Shown: in pieces, positions 35,648 to 59,652 of the stretch | Layout: each line of letters opens with the position of its first letter | How positions within the stretch are numbered: the first letter of the stretch is position 1 | Source: Maricaulaceae bacterium EIL42A08 | GTDB taxonomy: Bacteria; Pseudomonadota; Alphaproteobacteria; Caulobacterales; Maricaulaceae | Reading direction: 5' to 3' | Length of the DNA: 64,000 nt | Assembly: GCA_024178355.1 (NCBI GenBank) | Contig: JAMZNZ010000002.1 | Coordinates: 601,501 to 665,500, forward strand | The notes under the pieces: generated by a model | What the model was told of the DNA's origin: nothing | Databases searched by the model: none | The model's input: only the letters and a program-made list of their open reading frames with translations | Translations under genes and position numbers: made by a program

Positions 35648-35676
35648 TTGACGTTAACCCGGAACAGGCATAGAAC
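35648..35676 (+). promoter_or_regulatory. lexA promoter with LexA box over the -10
   Basis: TTGACG (35648-35653) and TAGAAC (35671-35676) are 17 bases apart. GAAC-AGGCATA-GAAC (35662-35676), i.e. GTTC-N7-GTTC on the other strand, covers the end of the spacer and the -10. LexA bound there would block RNA polymerase, giving normal SOS autoregulation. The box is a perfect match to the alphaproteobacterial consensus. Confidence 0.85.
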
Positions 35677-35715: not shown

Positions 35716-36405
35716 ATGCTCACACGCAAGCAGCAAGAGCTTTTGCTGTTCATCCACAAGCGCTTGTCGGAAGACGGCGTGTCTCCCTCCTTTGATGAAA
35801 TGAAAGAAGCCCTCGGGCTTGCATCAAAGTCTGGTGTTCACCGCCTGGTCAGCGCTCTGGAGGAGCGCGGCTTCATTCGCAGGCTTGCCAACCGCGCCCG
35901 GGCACTTGAAGTACTCAAGCTCCCCAATGGGCAGGCCGCCGACACGTCGACCGCGATTGCACAAAGCGACAACGTGGTCTCTGCACCCTTTGGTCGCCGC
36001 GGTGAGCCGGTTGAAGATTCCGGCATCGAGGTGCCCGTCCTGGGCCGGATTGCCGCAGGTGTACCCATCGAGGCGATCCAGCACGAGACCGATCGCTTGA
36101 GCGTGCCCAGCAATATGATCTCCGACGGCGATCACTTCGCGCTGGAAGTCAATGGCGACTCCATGATCGAGAAAGGCATCCTTGATGGAGACCTTGTGAT
36201 CATCAAGCGCGCTGACACCGCGACGACAGGTGAAATAGTGGTCGCCCTTGTCCATGATGAGGAAGCCACGCTGAAGACGCTGCGCAAGAAGGGCGGCTCC
36301 ATCGCCCTTGAAGCAGCCAACCCGGCCTATGAAACCCGGATCTTTGGCCCGGGAGAAGTGAAGGTTCAGGGTCGCCTGGTCGGCCTGATCCGCCGCTACC
36401 ACTAG
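35716..36405 (+). CDS. lexA: SOS repressor LexA
   Basis: LexA represses the SOS regulon and cleaves itself when RecA is activated. The 229 residues have a winged helix-turn-helix (residues 1-65; [38 protein letters not shown]), a hinge, and an S24 peptidase domain. The cleavage site is Ala114-Gly115 ([10 protein letters not shown]), the nucleophile is Ser149 (NGDSMIEKG) and the general base is Lys187 (EATLKTLR). Length and recognition helix fit the alphaproteobacterial type that binds GTTC-N7-GTTC. It is controlled by the operator just upstream and is followed by a terminator. Confidence 0.98.
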
Positions 36406-55200: not shown

Positions 55201-58200
55201 CTATAATTGCTCGATTTTCTCGACCCCTGAGACGGCCTTGATCGCAGCCCTTGCGGCCGGGTGGATGGCATGCTGGCCCGGCAGGCGCAACTCCGCCGAG
55301 CGACCATCGGCGAGCGGTACGATCAGATGCATGCCGCCTCTGGCCCCTTCGCGTTCATTGGCCCGCTCAATCCGCCGCTTCAGGCTTTCAAGAACCGAAA
55401 CGTCGGAAAGCCGAATACGCAGGCCCTCTCCCGAATGCTCTTTGGAGAATGGGTCAATGACATCCGCTCCGTCCAGGATCAGGCGCATGCCTTCATCGTT
55501 GTCCTCAATCTTCATGTTGAGGCTGGCGGCCGCACCGGGTTCGAGAACCTCGCGCACCTCGCGTAACACCTTTGGCGGGACAAGCGCTTCAAATTCACCT
55601 GAAGGGTCGGACAGGGTCACAAAGGCAAACTTCTCGCCGGAGCGTTGGGACACCTTCTCCTGGCGACGGCGCACCATCGCCGCCATGCGTGCTGCGCGCG
55701 CACCATCGGCCACTTTCGCAGGCAGCTCGGCAAACAGGCTCACGCCACGACGCGCCAGAGCCGGGCGCATGTCATCAAGCGGGTGGCCGGAAAGATAGAA
55801 GCCAACCGCAGACAACTCCTCATCGAGGCGACGGACCGGATCGAAAGGCTCCACGTCAGGCAGATGCGGACGCGCCAGACCGGGCGCATCCCCGCCACCG
55901 CCACCAAACAGTGAGACCTGCGCACTTTCGCGCTCGGCGTGGGCAGACTGGCTGAACGCCAGAAGCGTCTCAGCCGCCGCCAGCGCCTTGGCGCGATCTG
56001 GCTCCAGCGTATCAAACGCCCCTGCCCTCGCGAGGTTTTCAAGCGCACGCTTGTTGACGTGACGTGGATCGACGCGCTCTGCAAAGTCAAACAGATCCTT
56101 GAAGGGCCCGCCCTTTCGGCGCACGTCGGCCACGTGCTCCATCGCCGAAAAGCCCACATTGCGGATGGCTCCAAGCGCGTAACGAAGCTTGCCATCTTCA
56201 AGCGAGAAGTCAGCTTCTGATGCGTTCACGTCCGGCGGCAGCACTTCGATCCCCATGCGCCGGGCCTCCTGGAAGAACACAGCAAGCTTTTCGGTATTTG
56301 CGGCATCAAGGCTCATCAGGGCGGCCAGGAATGCGACCGGATGGTTCGCCTTCAACCAGCCGGTTTGATACGCAATCACGGCATAGGCGGCAGCGTGGGA
56401 TTTATTGAAGCCGTAGCCGGCAAATTCGGCAACCAGATCAAAGATATAGTTGGCCTTGTCTTTTGAGACGTCGTTCTTGCCGGCACCTTCAAGGAAGCGG
56501 ACACGCTGCTTGTCCATCTCTTCCTTTTTCTTTTTACCCATGGCGCGGCGCAGAAGGTCAGCTTCACCCAGCGAGTAGCCCGACAGGATCTGGGCGATCT
56601 GCATCACCTGTTCCTGATAGATGATCACCCCGAAGGTTTCCTTCAGGATCGGCTCAAGATCGGGGTGGAGATAATCGGGCTCCTCCTGACCAAACTTACG
56701 ACGTACATAGACGTCGATATTCTTCATCGGCCCCGGGCGATAAAGCGAAATCAGAGCGATAATGTCTTCAATGGTGTCGGGCTTCAGCTTCTTAAGCGTA
56801 TCTCGCATGCCCGAGCTTTCCAGCTGGAACACACCGATGGAGCCTCCGGATGCCAGAAGCTCATACGTGGCCGGCTCATCAAAGCCCATCGCATCCATGT
56901 CGGGACGTTCAAGGCCAGCACCTTCGATATAATCGAGCGCACGTGCGATCACCGTGAGCGTTTTCAGCCCCAGGAAGTCGAACTTCACGAGCCCAGCTGG
57001 TTCAACCCATTTCATGTTGAACTGGGTCGCTGGGAGATCAGACCGCGGGTCCTGGTAAAGCGGGACGAGCTCAGTCAGCGGCCGGTCCCCAATCACCACA
57101 CCGGCAGCGTGGGTCGAGGCGTTTCGAAACAGTCCCTCCAGCTGAAGCGCAACGTCGATCAGGCGATCCACCATGGCGTCTTCGCGGCGCATTTCCTGCA
57201 GTTTGGGCTCGGTTTCCACCGCTTGGGCCAGCGTCACCGGTTGCGCCGGATTGTTGGGCACCAACTTGGCAATTCGGTCAACAAGACCGAAGGGAAGCTG
57301 GAGGACCCGCCCCACATCGCGAACAACGGCACGCGCCTGAAGCGTACCAAAAGTGATGATCTGAGCGACCCGGTCATCACCGTAGCGATCCCTCACATAA
57401 CGGATCACCTCGCCGCGCCGGTCCTGACAGAAGTCCACGTCGAAGTCCGGCATGGAAACGCGTTCCGGGTTCAAGAAGCGCTCAAACAGAAGCCCGAAGC
57501 GAAGAGGATCAAGATCGGTAATCGTGAGCGCCCAGGCAACCAGCGAGCCAGCGCCTGAACCCCGCCCCGGCCCCACAGGAATATCCTGAGACTTTGCCCA
57601 CTGGATGAAGTCCGAAACGATCAGGAAGTAGCCCGGAAACCCCATCTTCTCGATGATGCCAAGCTCGTAATCGAGGCGCTCCATATACTCGGATTCCGGA
57701 GCGGCTGGGTCGACCTTCTCGAGCCGCTCCTTCAGGCCTTCAAGCGCACGGGCGCGCAGTTCCTCAGCCTCGTTACGGTCACCCTTGGTGGGGAAGCTGG
57801 GCAGGATCGGAGCACCGGTGCGCGGGCGAAAGGCGCAGCGACGCGCGATATCAAGCGTTGATTCAATCGCTTCAGGCAGGTCGGCAAAGCGCTCGACCAT
57901 GTCCGCGCCCGACTTGAACGCATGCTCAGGCGTCACCTTGCGGCGATCCTCAACACTGACATAGGTCCCTTCAGAAATGCACATGAGCGCGTCATGGGCC
58001 TGATGGAGTGCGGGGCGCGCAAAATAAGGTTCATTGGTCGCCACAAGCGGGATATCGCGGGCATAGGCCTGATCAACCAGCACGCCCTCAGCCGTGACAT
58101 CATCGGCGCGCCCGTGGCGCTGCAACTCGATATAAAGCCGGTCGCCATAGGCCGCTTCAAGCTTGTCGAGGATGTCCAGCGCCTGGGGTTCTCGCCCCGA

Positions 58201-58650
58201 ACAGATCAGACGATTGAGGACCCCGTCATGCCCGCCGGTTAGGCAGATCAGCCCCTCATTAAGGTCGAGGAGTTTCTGAAGGGGAATGTGAGCAATGTCC
58301 GTGGCGGCCACATCAAGATAGGCCGCAGACGACAGCTTCATCAGGTTTGCGTAGCCGGCTTCAGACTGCGCGAGAACCACAAGTGTGCCGGTTGGCTCTG
58401 ATCGCTCACCGGGGCGCGGAGCCTCGGTCAGAACAGACAGTGTGCAGCCAATGATGGGCTGAACGCCCTCGCCTGAAAGAACCTCTGAAAACTCCAGAGC
58501 ACCAAACAGATTGTTGGTGTCGGTCAGAGCCGCCGCCGGCATGTCGTGAGCACGACAAAGTTCGGCGGTTTCCTTGATACGGATAGCCCCTTCAAGCAGC
58601 GAATACGGCGACCGCACGCGAAGATGAACAAAGGGGATTTTGTCCGACAT
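55201..58650 (-). CDS. dnaE: DNA polymerase III alpha subunit
   Basis: The replicative polymerase subunit, 1149 residues. The PHP domain starts at [16 protein letters not shown]; the His of the usual second position is Arg, so a metal-dependent PHP exonuclease is unlikely, as in other proteobacterial DnaE proteins. The polymerase core shows [14 protein letters not shown], the catalytic Asp pair in [15 protein letters not shown], and [10 protein letters not shown]. The beta-clamp and OB regions follow in the last third ([15 protein letters not shown]). ATG at 58650 has GGAG six bases upstream. A 30-codon membrane-peptide gene ends 77 bases upstream in the same direction, so the two may share the LexA-boxed promoter. 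Confidence 0.97.
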
Positions 58651-58726
58651 ATCCGGCTCCACAAAGGCAGGGCGCGCGTTCCGCGACTCGAAAGGCGTTC
58701 AGCTTAACCCGCCAGAGCCAGTGCGG

Positions 58727-58819
58727 TCAGCCGACGATTGCGGCTCCCAGTGTCAACGCGGTTGCCATAAAGCCAACAATCACCGCAGCAGTGGTTAGAT
58801 CCTGAACGAAATCACGCAT
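58727..58819 (-). CDS. 30-residue single-helix membrane peptide, SidA-like SOS candidate
   Basis: A very short gene, missed by usual length cut-offs. ATG at 58819 has AAGGA nine bases upstream (58827-58831 region), and the 30 codons end in TGA at 58727. The product begins MRDFVQDLTTAA and is one hydrophobic helix from about residue 10 to 29 (AVIVGFMATALTL, then GAAIVG), with a short charged N-terminus, so it should sit in the inner membrane. Two LexA-like boxes and a TTGACG -35 lie just upstream. Caulobacter SidA is a 29-residue, SOS-induced inner-membrane peptide that inhibits division through FtsW and FtsN; size, topology and control agree. Homology itself is unproven because short helices align poorly. 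Confidence 0.6.
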   Translation of the reverse strand: MRDFVQDLTTAAVIVGFMATALTLGAAIVG

Positions 58820-58854
58820 GGGAACAGTCCTTGTACAAAGCCGCTTATGCAGCT

Positions 58855-58904
58855 ATTCCTGTTTTGTTCTCCTTTACATATTCGCCTTTTGTTCTGCTCG
58901 TCAA
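58855..58904 (-). promoter_or_regulatory. Promoter with two tandem LexA-like boxes
   Basis: On the plus strand ATTC-CTGTTTT-GTTC (58855-58869) and ATTC-GCCTTTT-GTTC (58880-58894) each match GTTC-N7-GTTC with a single change in the same position, 25 bases apart. On the coding strand the half-sites read GAAC-N7-GAAT, the same orientation as at lexA. TTGACG (58904-58899) is a near-consensus -35; ATATGT or TATGTA around 58875-58881 is a weak -10. One box sits in the spacer, the other near the predicted start site, so LexA could block initiation twice over. Confidence 0.6.
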
Positions 58905-58959
58905 GAGGGTTGACTCGATTTTTTTCGAAGGTGTGGAATATCAAGCTACTAGGCGGCAA

Positions 58960-59652
58960 TCAGCCAGGAGCCTGCCATGCCACCAGCTTGCCTTTATCCA
59001 GCGTAATGACCCGGTCCATGCGGTCAGCAAGAGTAAAATTATGTGTCGCGACAAGAGCCGCAGCGCCGGTTTCGCGGCACGCAGACCGCATCGCCTCAAA
59101 CACCTGGTCGGAGGTATCGGGGTCGAGATTACCTGTCGGCTCATCGGCGAGGAGAACGCTAGGCCTGTTGGCCAAGGCGCGTGCAATCGCGACGCGTTGT
59201 TGCTCCCCCCCTGACAGCTGACCGGGCCGATGCGTCAACCGATCTCCAAGCCCAAGCAGCACCAGGCGTTCGGTCGCGGCCTTGTCGGCAGCTCTTGCGC
59301 TCAAGCCCGCGATACGAGCGGGCAGAGAGACGTTCTCTAACGCATTAAGTTCGGCTAGCAAGTGGTGGAATTGATAAACGAAACCAATTTCGTCGCGGCG
59401 CAGGCGCGTACGCTCGGCCTCGCCGAGTTCGAAGCCATTGCGACCGCCGATCAAAACCTCACCGCCATCAGGGCGCTCAAGAAGAGCGGCGGCGTGAAGC
59501 AATGAAGACTTACCTGAGCCTGATGGCCCGACAAGCCCGACAAGCTCGCCCGGGTTCAGATCGAGATCCGCTCCCGTCAGAACGCAGAGCGCTTCACCCT
59601 CGGTCTGATAAGTACGCTTCAGGCCGCGCAGGCTGAGAGCTGGATTACTCAT
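58960..59652 (-). CDS. lolD: Lipoprotein-releasing ABC ATPase LolD
   Basis: The ATPase of LolCDE, which extracts lipoproteins from the inner membrane. The 230 residues carry Walker A (GPSGSGKSSLL), the Q-loop, the signature LSGGEQQRVAIARAL, Walker B (VLLADEPTGNLD) and the H-loop (ATHNFTLADRMD). ATG at 59652 overlaps the lolC stop by eight bases, indicating coupling; the longer frame to 59913 only overlaps lolC and is a shadow. Confidence 0.95.
   Translation of the reverse strand: MSNPALSLRGLKRTYQTEGEALCVLTGADLDLNPGELVGLVGPSGSGKSSLLHAAALLERPDGGEVLIGGRNGFELGEAERTRLRRDEIGFVYQFHHLLAELNALENVSLPARIAGLSARAADKAATERLVLLGLGDRLTHRPGQLSGGEQQRVAIARALANRPSVLLADEPTGNLDPDTSDQVFEAMRSACRETGAAALVATHNFTLADRMDRVITLDKGKLVAWQAPG

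Follow-up and report, generated by a model that had tools for sequence, protein, structure and literature searches.

A peptide gene with LexA-type boxes between lolD and dnaE in Maricaulaceae probably encodes a diverged ortholog of the Caulobacter division inhibitor SidA

The region between lolD and dnaE

The window analyzed here, 64,000 nt of a contig from Maricaulaceae bacterium EIL42A08, encodes on its reverse strand a lolD-like ABC ATPase, a small peptide and the alpha subunit of DNA polymerase III, in this order (Table 1). The ORF, the AAGGA, the TTGACG hexamer and the two LexA-type boxes that a first-pass annotation had placed upstream of dnaE were all recovered in place by direct reading, and the boxes have the layout that it described, being 25 nt apart and each one base off GAAC-N7-GAAC. 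Read directly, the ORF translates as MRDFVQDLTTAAVIVGFMATALTLGAAIVG, 30 aa with one hydrophobic stretch and a predicted membrane location, and thus resembles SidA (~29 residues, one helix) in length and topology. The distal box lies directly 3' of the -35 hexamer and fills the -35/-10 interval; the proximal box seems to cover the probable transcription start, and together the two would represent the usual repressor-operator layout. A gap of 76 nt lies between the peptide gene and dnaE, for which an alternative GTG start is present at 58662. Comparison of the window peptide with Pfam and NCBIfam yielded nothing meaningful, with a TAT-signal match remaining under the cut-off, and a plasmid collection queried with the peptide region gave no match.

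Table 1. Features of the peptide-dnaE locus and of the lexA locus in the window
Feature	Position	Strand	Remarks
Peptide ORF, 30 codons; single hydrophobic helix, SidA-type (predicted)	58727..58819, stop included	-	conserved in genus and order
Shine-Dalgarno-like AAGGA	58828..58832	-	8 nt 5' of peptide ATG
Proximal LexA-type box GAACAAAACAGGAAT	58855..58869	-	one base from GAAC-N7-GAAC; near-invariant in 14 genus members
Distal LexA-type box GAACAAAAGGCGAAT	58880..58894	-	25 nt 5' of proximal box; one base off consensus
TTGACG, -35 hexamer	58899..58904	-	invariant in 14 genus members
Candidate separate dnaE promoter	58702..58730	-	CTGACC overlapping peptide stop codon; TTAAGC/CTAG-type hexamer 17-18 nt downstream
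dnaE (DNA polymerase III alpha)	55201..58650	-	TIGR00594, 1180 bits; start is ATG of MSDKIPF
lolD-like ABC ATPase gene	58960..59652	-	upstream conserved neighbour; tblastn in related loci
Perfect LexA box GAACAGGCATAGAAC	35662..35676	+	5' of lexA; serves as reference box for this genome
lexA, presumed repressor	35716..36405	+	translation

Conservation of the peptide and of the LexA-type boxes

A search of 60 relatives identified the peptide in 14 of the 15 same-genus genomes, the source genome included, and in four other genera. In these relatives, the peptide gene always adjoins dnaE, with lolD on the other flank where the contig allows. The gap to dnaE ranges from about 34 to 272 nt. Among the 14 genus members, all 91 pairwise comparisons show more synonymous than nonsynonymous change (0.56 vs 0.21 per site), and third codon positions are variable in 29 of the 29 columns; the excess of synonymous change is absent in the other two frames. 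The peptide is under purifying selection, and in the peptide frame only.

The upstream elements are conserved as well. The genus alignment retains a purine-rich AAGG/AGGG-type ribosome site before the peptide. In the distal box, GAACAAAA-N3-GAA is invariant, and most of the proximal box, GAACAAAACAGGAAT, is conserved in all 14 genus members; both candidate operators deviate from the consensus at the last base throughout the genus, and 22 related genomes within the family share the 25-nt spacing. A third one-mismatch match in the peptide leader (58822-58836) is not conserved. The first-pass reading had been made dependent on the conservation of the peptide and the boxes in relatives, and both proved to be conserved.

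Matches to the LexA box with one mismatch number 44 in the 64-kb window compared to 46.2 expected from shuffles, so the case for these boxes rests on conservation, which puts the peptide together with its boxes far above chance. Exact GTTC-N7-GTTC is uninformative genome-wide (50 matches vs 70 for the reversed pattern). The stricter pattern GAACAWAANNNGAA has only 6 matches in the whole 3.0-Mb genome; two of these are the peptide's boxes, and three more are perfect boxes, one before ssb/uvrA, one before an imuA-like gene that precedes dnaE2 and one before an mmcB-like gene (gene names assigned by reading the sequence), all three of the GAACAWAA type. The imperfect boxes had also been taken to indicate graded or late induction, a suggestion that finds no support because, in Caulobacter, the properties of LexA boxes do not predict the timing of induction and sidA belongs to the early genes (PMC12700426). 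Perfect AT-rich LexA-type boxes with candidate SOS genes downstream were also observed elsewhere in the source genome (L198, C3:25074-25088; L048, C2:387537-387586).

Survey of the order

A dnaE start could be assigned in 287 of the 299 genomes examined across the order; for 60 loci, the upstream region was retrieved. In three families, every retrieved region contains a hydrophobic peptide before dnaE, with a length of 29-31 residues and one exception. When these peptides are combined with those from the 60 relatives, a LexA-type box lies within 130 nt of each of the 70, at least two boxes are present at 61 and a perfect one at 44; the respective means for base-shuffled sequences are 6 (at least one box), 0.5 (at least two) and 0.3 (perfect). 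An acidic residue (D or E) occupies position 7 in 69 of the 70 peptides, and most of them have G/S followed by F/L at positions 16-17. Family f4 lacks the peptide, and some of its genera retain a box directly before dnaE.

Relationship to SidA of Caulobacter

The link to SidA comes from Caulobacteraceae (family f3, which includes Caulobacter vibrioides DSM 9893). In Caulobacter and its relatives, the same slot between lolD and dnaE holds a 29-residue peptide, which is also found in named C. vibrioides records (L141), and the Caulobacter slot peptides match the NCBIfam model NF033228, 'cell division inhibitor SidA', with 71-72 bits (cut-off 35). SidA is a 29-residue, LexA-controlled inner-membrane peptide that targets the late divisome and acts on FtsW (PMC4211646). 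In Caulobacter, sidA is CCNA_02004 (PMC10769358) and dnaE is CC1926 (PMC1839093); the NF033228 match in the slot is consistent with the location of sidA (CCNA_02004) beside dnaE. The window peptide shares this location, with dnaE downstream and lolD upstream, along with the ~30-residue single-helix architecture, the acidic residue 7, the G/S-F core and promoter boxes of the GAAC-N7-GAAC type. As in SidA, a LexA operator is found at the promoter, in this case as two conserved one-off boxes that are predicted sites. However, sequence similarity to SidA is only remote, the window peptide lacks the W and C of the Caulobacter core, and the box cluster in Caulobacter includes a perfect box, in contrast to the two one-off boxes 25 nt apart found here.

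The curated annotation misses the window peptide because it gives no match to NF033228 at E<=10, and none of the 99 genomes searched in its family exceeds the cut-off; the model yields only scattered weak matches in this family, mostly within larger frames. NF033228 covers peptides of the Caulobacter and Phenylobacterium types (tested on the peptides of L067, L068, L070 and L074), but three peptides of the same family that have diverged further score 33.5, 26.1 and 17.4, below the cut-off of 35. A broader SidA model could be built from the 70 order-wide peptides.

In a direct comparison, the profiles of the Caulobacteraceae peptides and of the window-genus peptides show no mutual recognition above shuffled peptides. 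By contrast, with a profile of the other genera of the window's family, 14 of the 14 window-genus peptides and 16 of the 20 Caulobacteraceae peptides exceed 99.9% of shuffles. Judged from this bridge, homology with SidA is detectable through intermediate genera that connect both groups; the window peptide aligns with the Caulobacter peptides without gaps except at the C-terminus. Given that the direct profiles fail and the intermediate one succeeds, orthology rests on position, operator, length and the bridge. Under the strict curated definition, the window peptide is not SidA; by descent, it most likely is. Coding sequence, LexA-type operators and synteny with the Caulobacteraceae sidA locus are all conserved. 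The first-pass annotation proposed that the peptide is a functional counterpart of SidA under SOS control. Strong support for this comes from the match of the Caulobacter slot peptide to the SidA model and from the presence of boxes at all 70 peptide genes, and 'functional counterpart' can be sharpened to a predicted 'syntenic ortholog'.

Putative mechanism and alternative explanations

We consider it highly probable that the window peptide is a diverged, LexA-repressed ortholog of SidA that holds the FtsW/FtsI/FtsN complex inactive and so blocks division after DNA damage. For this peptide, we infer LexA binding, induction, membrane insertion, an FtsW target and division arrest, as follows. 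LexA bound to the two promoter-overlapping operators would keep the peptide gene off; upon DNA damage, active RecA would bring about the cleavage of LexA, and the peptide would be made. It would then enter the inner membrane as one helix and lock the FtsW/FtsI/FtsN septal synthesis complex in an inactive state, such that the cell would elongate without dividing until repair is done.

Several known proteins are comparable to the peptide in the proposed role. DidA of Caulobacter is likewise small, resides in the inner membrane and inhibits the late divisome (PMC4211646) but is SOS-independent, binds FtsN and is encoded by a separate gene with the regulator DriD, whereas the window peptide has LexA-type operators. 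YneA of Bacillus, which binds FtsW (PMC13396833), SosA of Staphylococcus and ChiZ of Mycobacterium are small membrane proteins that are induced in the SOS response and block division at a late stage. These three proteins differ from the window peptide in having unrelated sequences and other hosts and, in the case of ChiZ, a LysM domain.

TisB and DinQ of E. coli are toxic membrane peptides of similar size that are under LexA control and antisense RNA control. An SOS-induced toxin of this type, which would depolarise the inner membrane and slow growth or promote persistence without being specific for the divisome, could account for the similar size, the single hydrophobic helix and the LexA-type control of the window peptide, and DinQ is an example of a small SOS membrane peptide in E. 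coli (PMC3567139). We nevertheless regard such a toxin as quite unlikely: the peptide occupies the slot of SidA, which targets FtsW; a search of 58300-59300 of the window against Rfam detected neither an antisense RNA nor any other RNA family, although novel antisense RNAs would escape it; and the order-wide acidic residue 7 and G/S-F at positions 16-17 fit a specific contact better than a generic pore. A variant of the SidA explanation, which is compatible with it, holds that the family is the same and the main contact was switched in the window genus, for example, from FtsW to FtsN or FtsI. The strong divergence from Caulobacter SidA and the precedent of DidA, with FtsN as an alternative target (PMC4211646), favor this variant, as does position 31 of FtsW, which is T in the source genome vs A in Caulobacter and varies across the order. 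The A31K substitution in Caulobacter FtsW strongly suppresses the effect of SidA overproduction, and the difference at this residue implies that the contact between the peptide and FtsW may have drifted. On the other hand, the FtsW encoded in the source genome retains F145 and A246, two Caulobacter suppressor positions, and SidA touches both FtsW and FtsN in two-hybrid assays, so the complex would remain the common target; a switched contact appears rather unlikely.

Another reading takes the ORF mainly as a leader peptide for dnaE, acting through translational coupling or attenuation, with the LexA operators serving dnaE. The constant position of the peptide directly 5' of dnaE, with no terminator between them, would fit, as would the LexA-type box that is retained right before dnaE in three relatives without the peptide (L112, L113 and L114). 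However, the amino acid sequence is conserved beyond what mere translation would require, in Caulobacter the counterpart has been proven to inhibit division in trans (PMC4211646), and the variation of the gap to dnaE (~34 to 272 nt) makes attenuation unlikely because the spacing is too loose; a leader function of this kind is very improbable. A chance ORF accompanied by chance near-matches to the LexA box, as the shuffle-level frequency of such matches in the window might suggest, is refuted by the conservation and the controls and has a negligible probability.

Transcription of dnaE

Between the peptide and dnaE, no terminator-like site was found, as the first-pass annotation had maintained. 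Given the short gap and the lack of a terminator, it is plausible that dnaE is co-induced with the peptide by read-through. Tentatively, dnaE may also have its own promoter, the TGACC...CTA pair between the peptide and dnaE (Table 1), which is conserved across the 14 genus members and was not detected by a sigma-70 scan. In three genomes without the peptide, two from family f4 (L112 and L113) and one from family f2 (L114), LexA-type boxes (GAACAAAACAAGAAT, GAACAAAACGGGAAT and GAACAAGAGGAGAAC, respectively) are located ~20-75 nt before dnaE. The persistence of these boxes without the peptide points to possible LexA control of the replicative polymerase itself in these relatives.

Occurrence beyond the order and implications

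Beyond a few models, little is known of how bacteria respond to DNA damage by halting division, as the inhibitors involved are tiny and unrelated in sequence. Systems of this kind have been described; the present member and its range appear to be new within the searchable literature, where we found no report of SidA outside Caulobacter. As delineated by these searches, the peptide family extends well past Caulobacter and past the coverage of curated models. If the interpretation is correct, the fixed address lolD-x-dnaE combined with a GAAC-N7-GAAC box would locate the inhibitor across much of the order and in isolated families elsewhere in the class, whereas the curated SidA model sees only Caulobacteraceae; it would then be possible to test directly, in many species, whether the interaction of SidA with FtsW is conserved and whether a division block is coupled to dnaE transcription.

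A profile search of 385 genomes of the class produced matches 5' of dnaE in further families, most of them behind perfect boxes; the weak matches L214, L218, L221 and L223 were discarded given that, on reading, they resemble diacylglycerol-kinase helices. In an unbiased examination of 60 further regions upstream of dnaE, 9 combine a perfect GAAC-N7-GAAC box with a hydrophobic microORF downstream of it; in the same regions, there was no such case on the opposite strand or with any of the eleven permuted half-sites, and at most 1 for a spacing other than 7. The microORFs outside the order may share function, or even descent, with SidA. We further lean toward placing SidA as a single branch within an ancient family of alphaproteobacterial SOS division inhibitors, ~30-45 residues long and encoded before dnaE. 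These peptides would evolve fast in sequence, be held in place by the operator and the neighbours, and allow LexA to link the arrest of division to transcription of the gene for the replicative polymerase.

SidA-like microORFs before dnaE in other alphaproteobacterial families were recorded at L203, L205-L207, L209-L212, L226, L228, L230, L234, L241, L242, L245, L257 and L280. These microORFs sit behind perfect LexA boxes, and several have a W-[VI]-K-D start.
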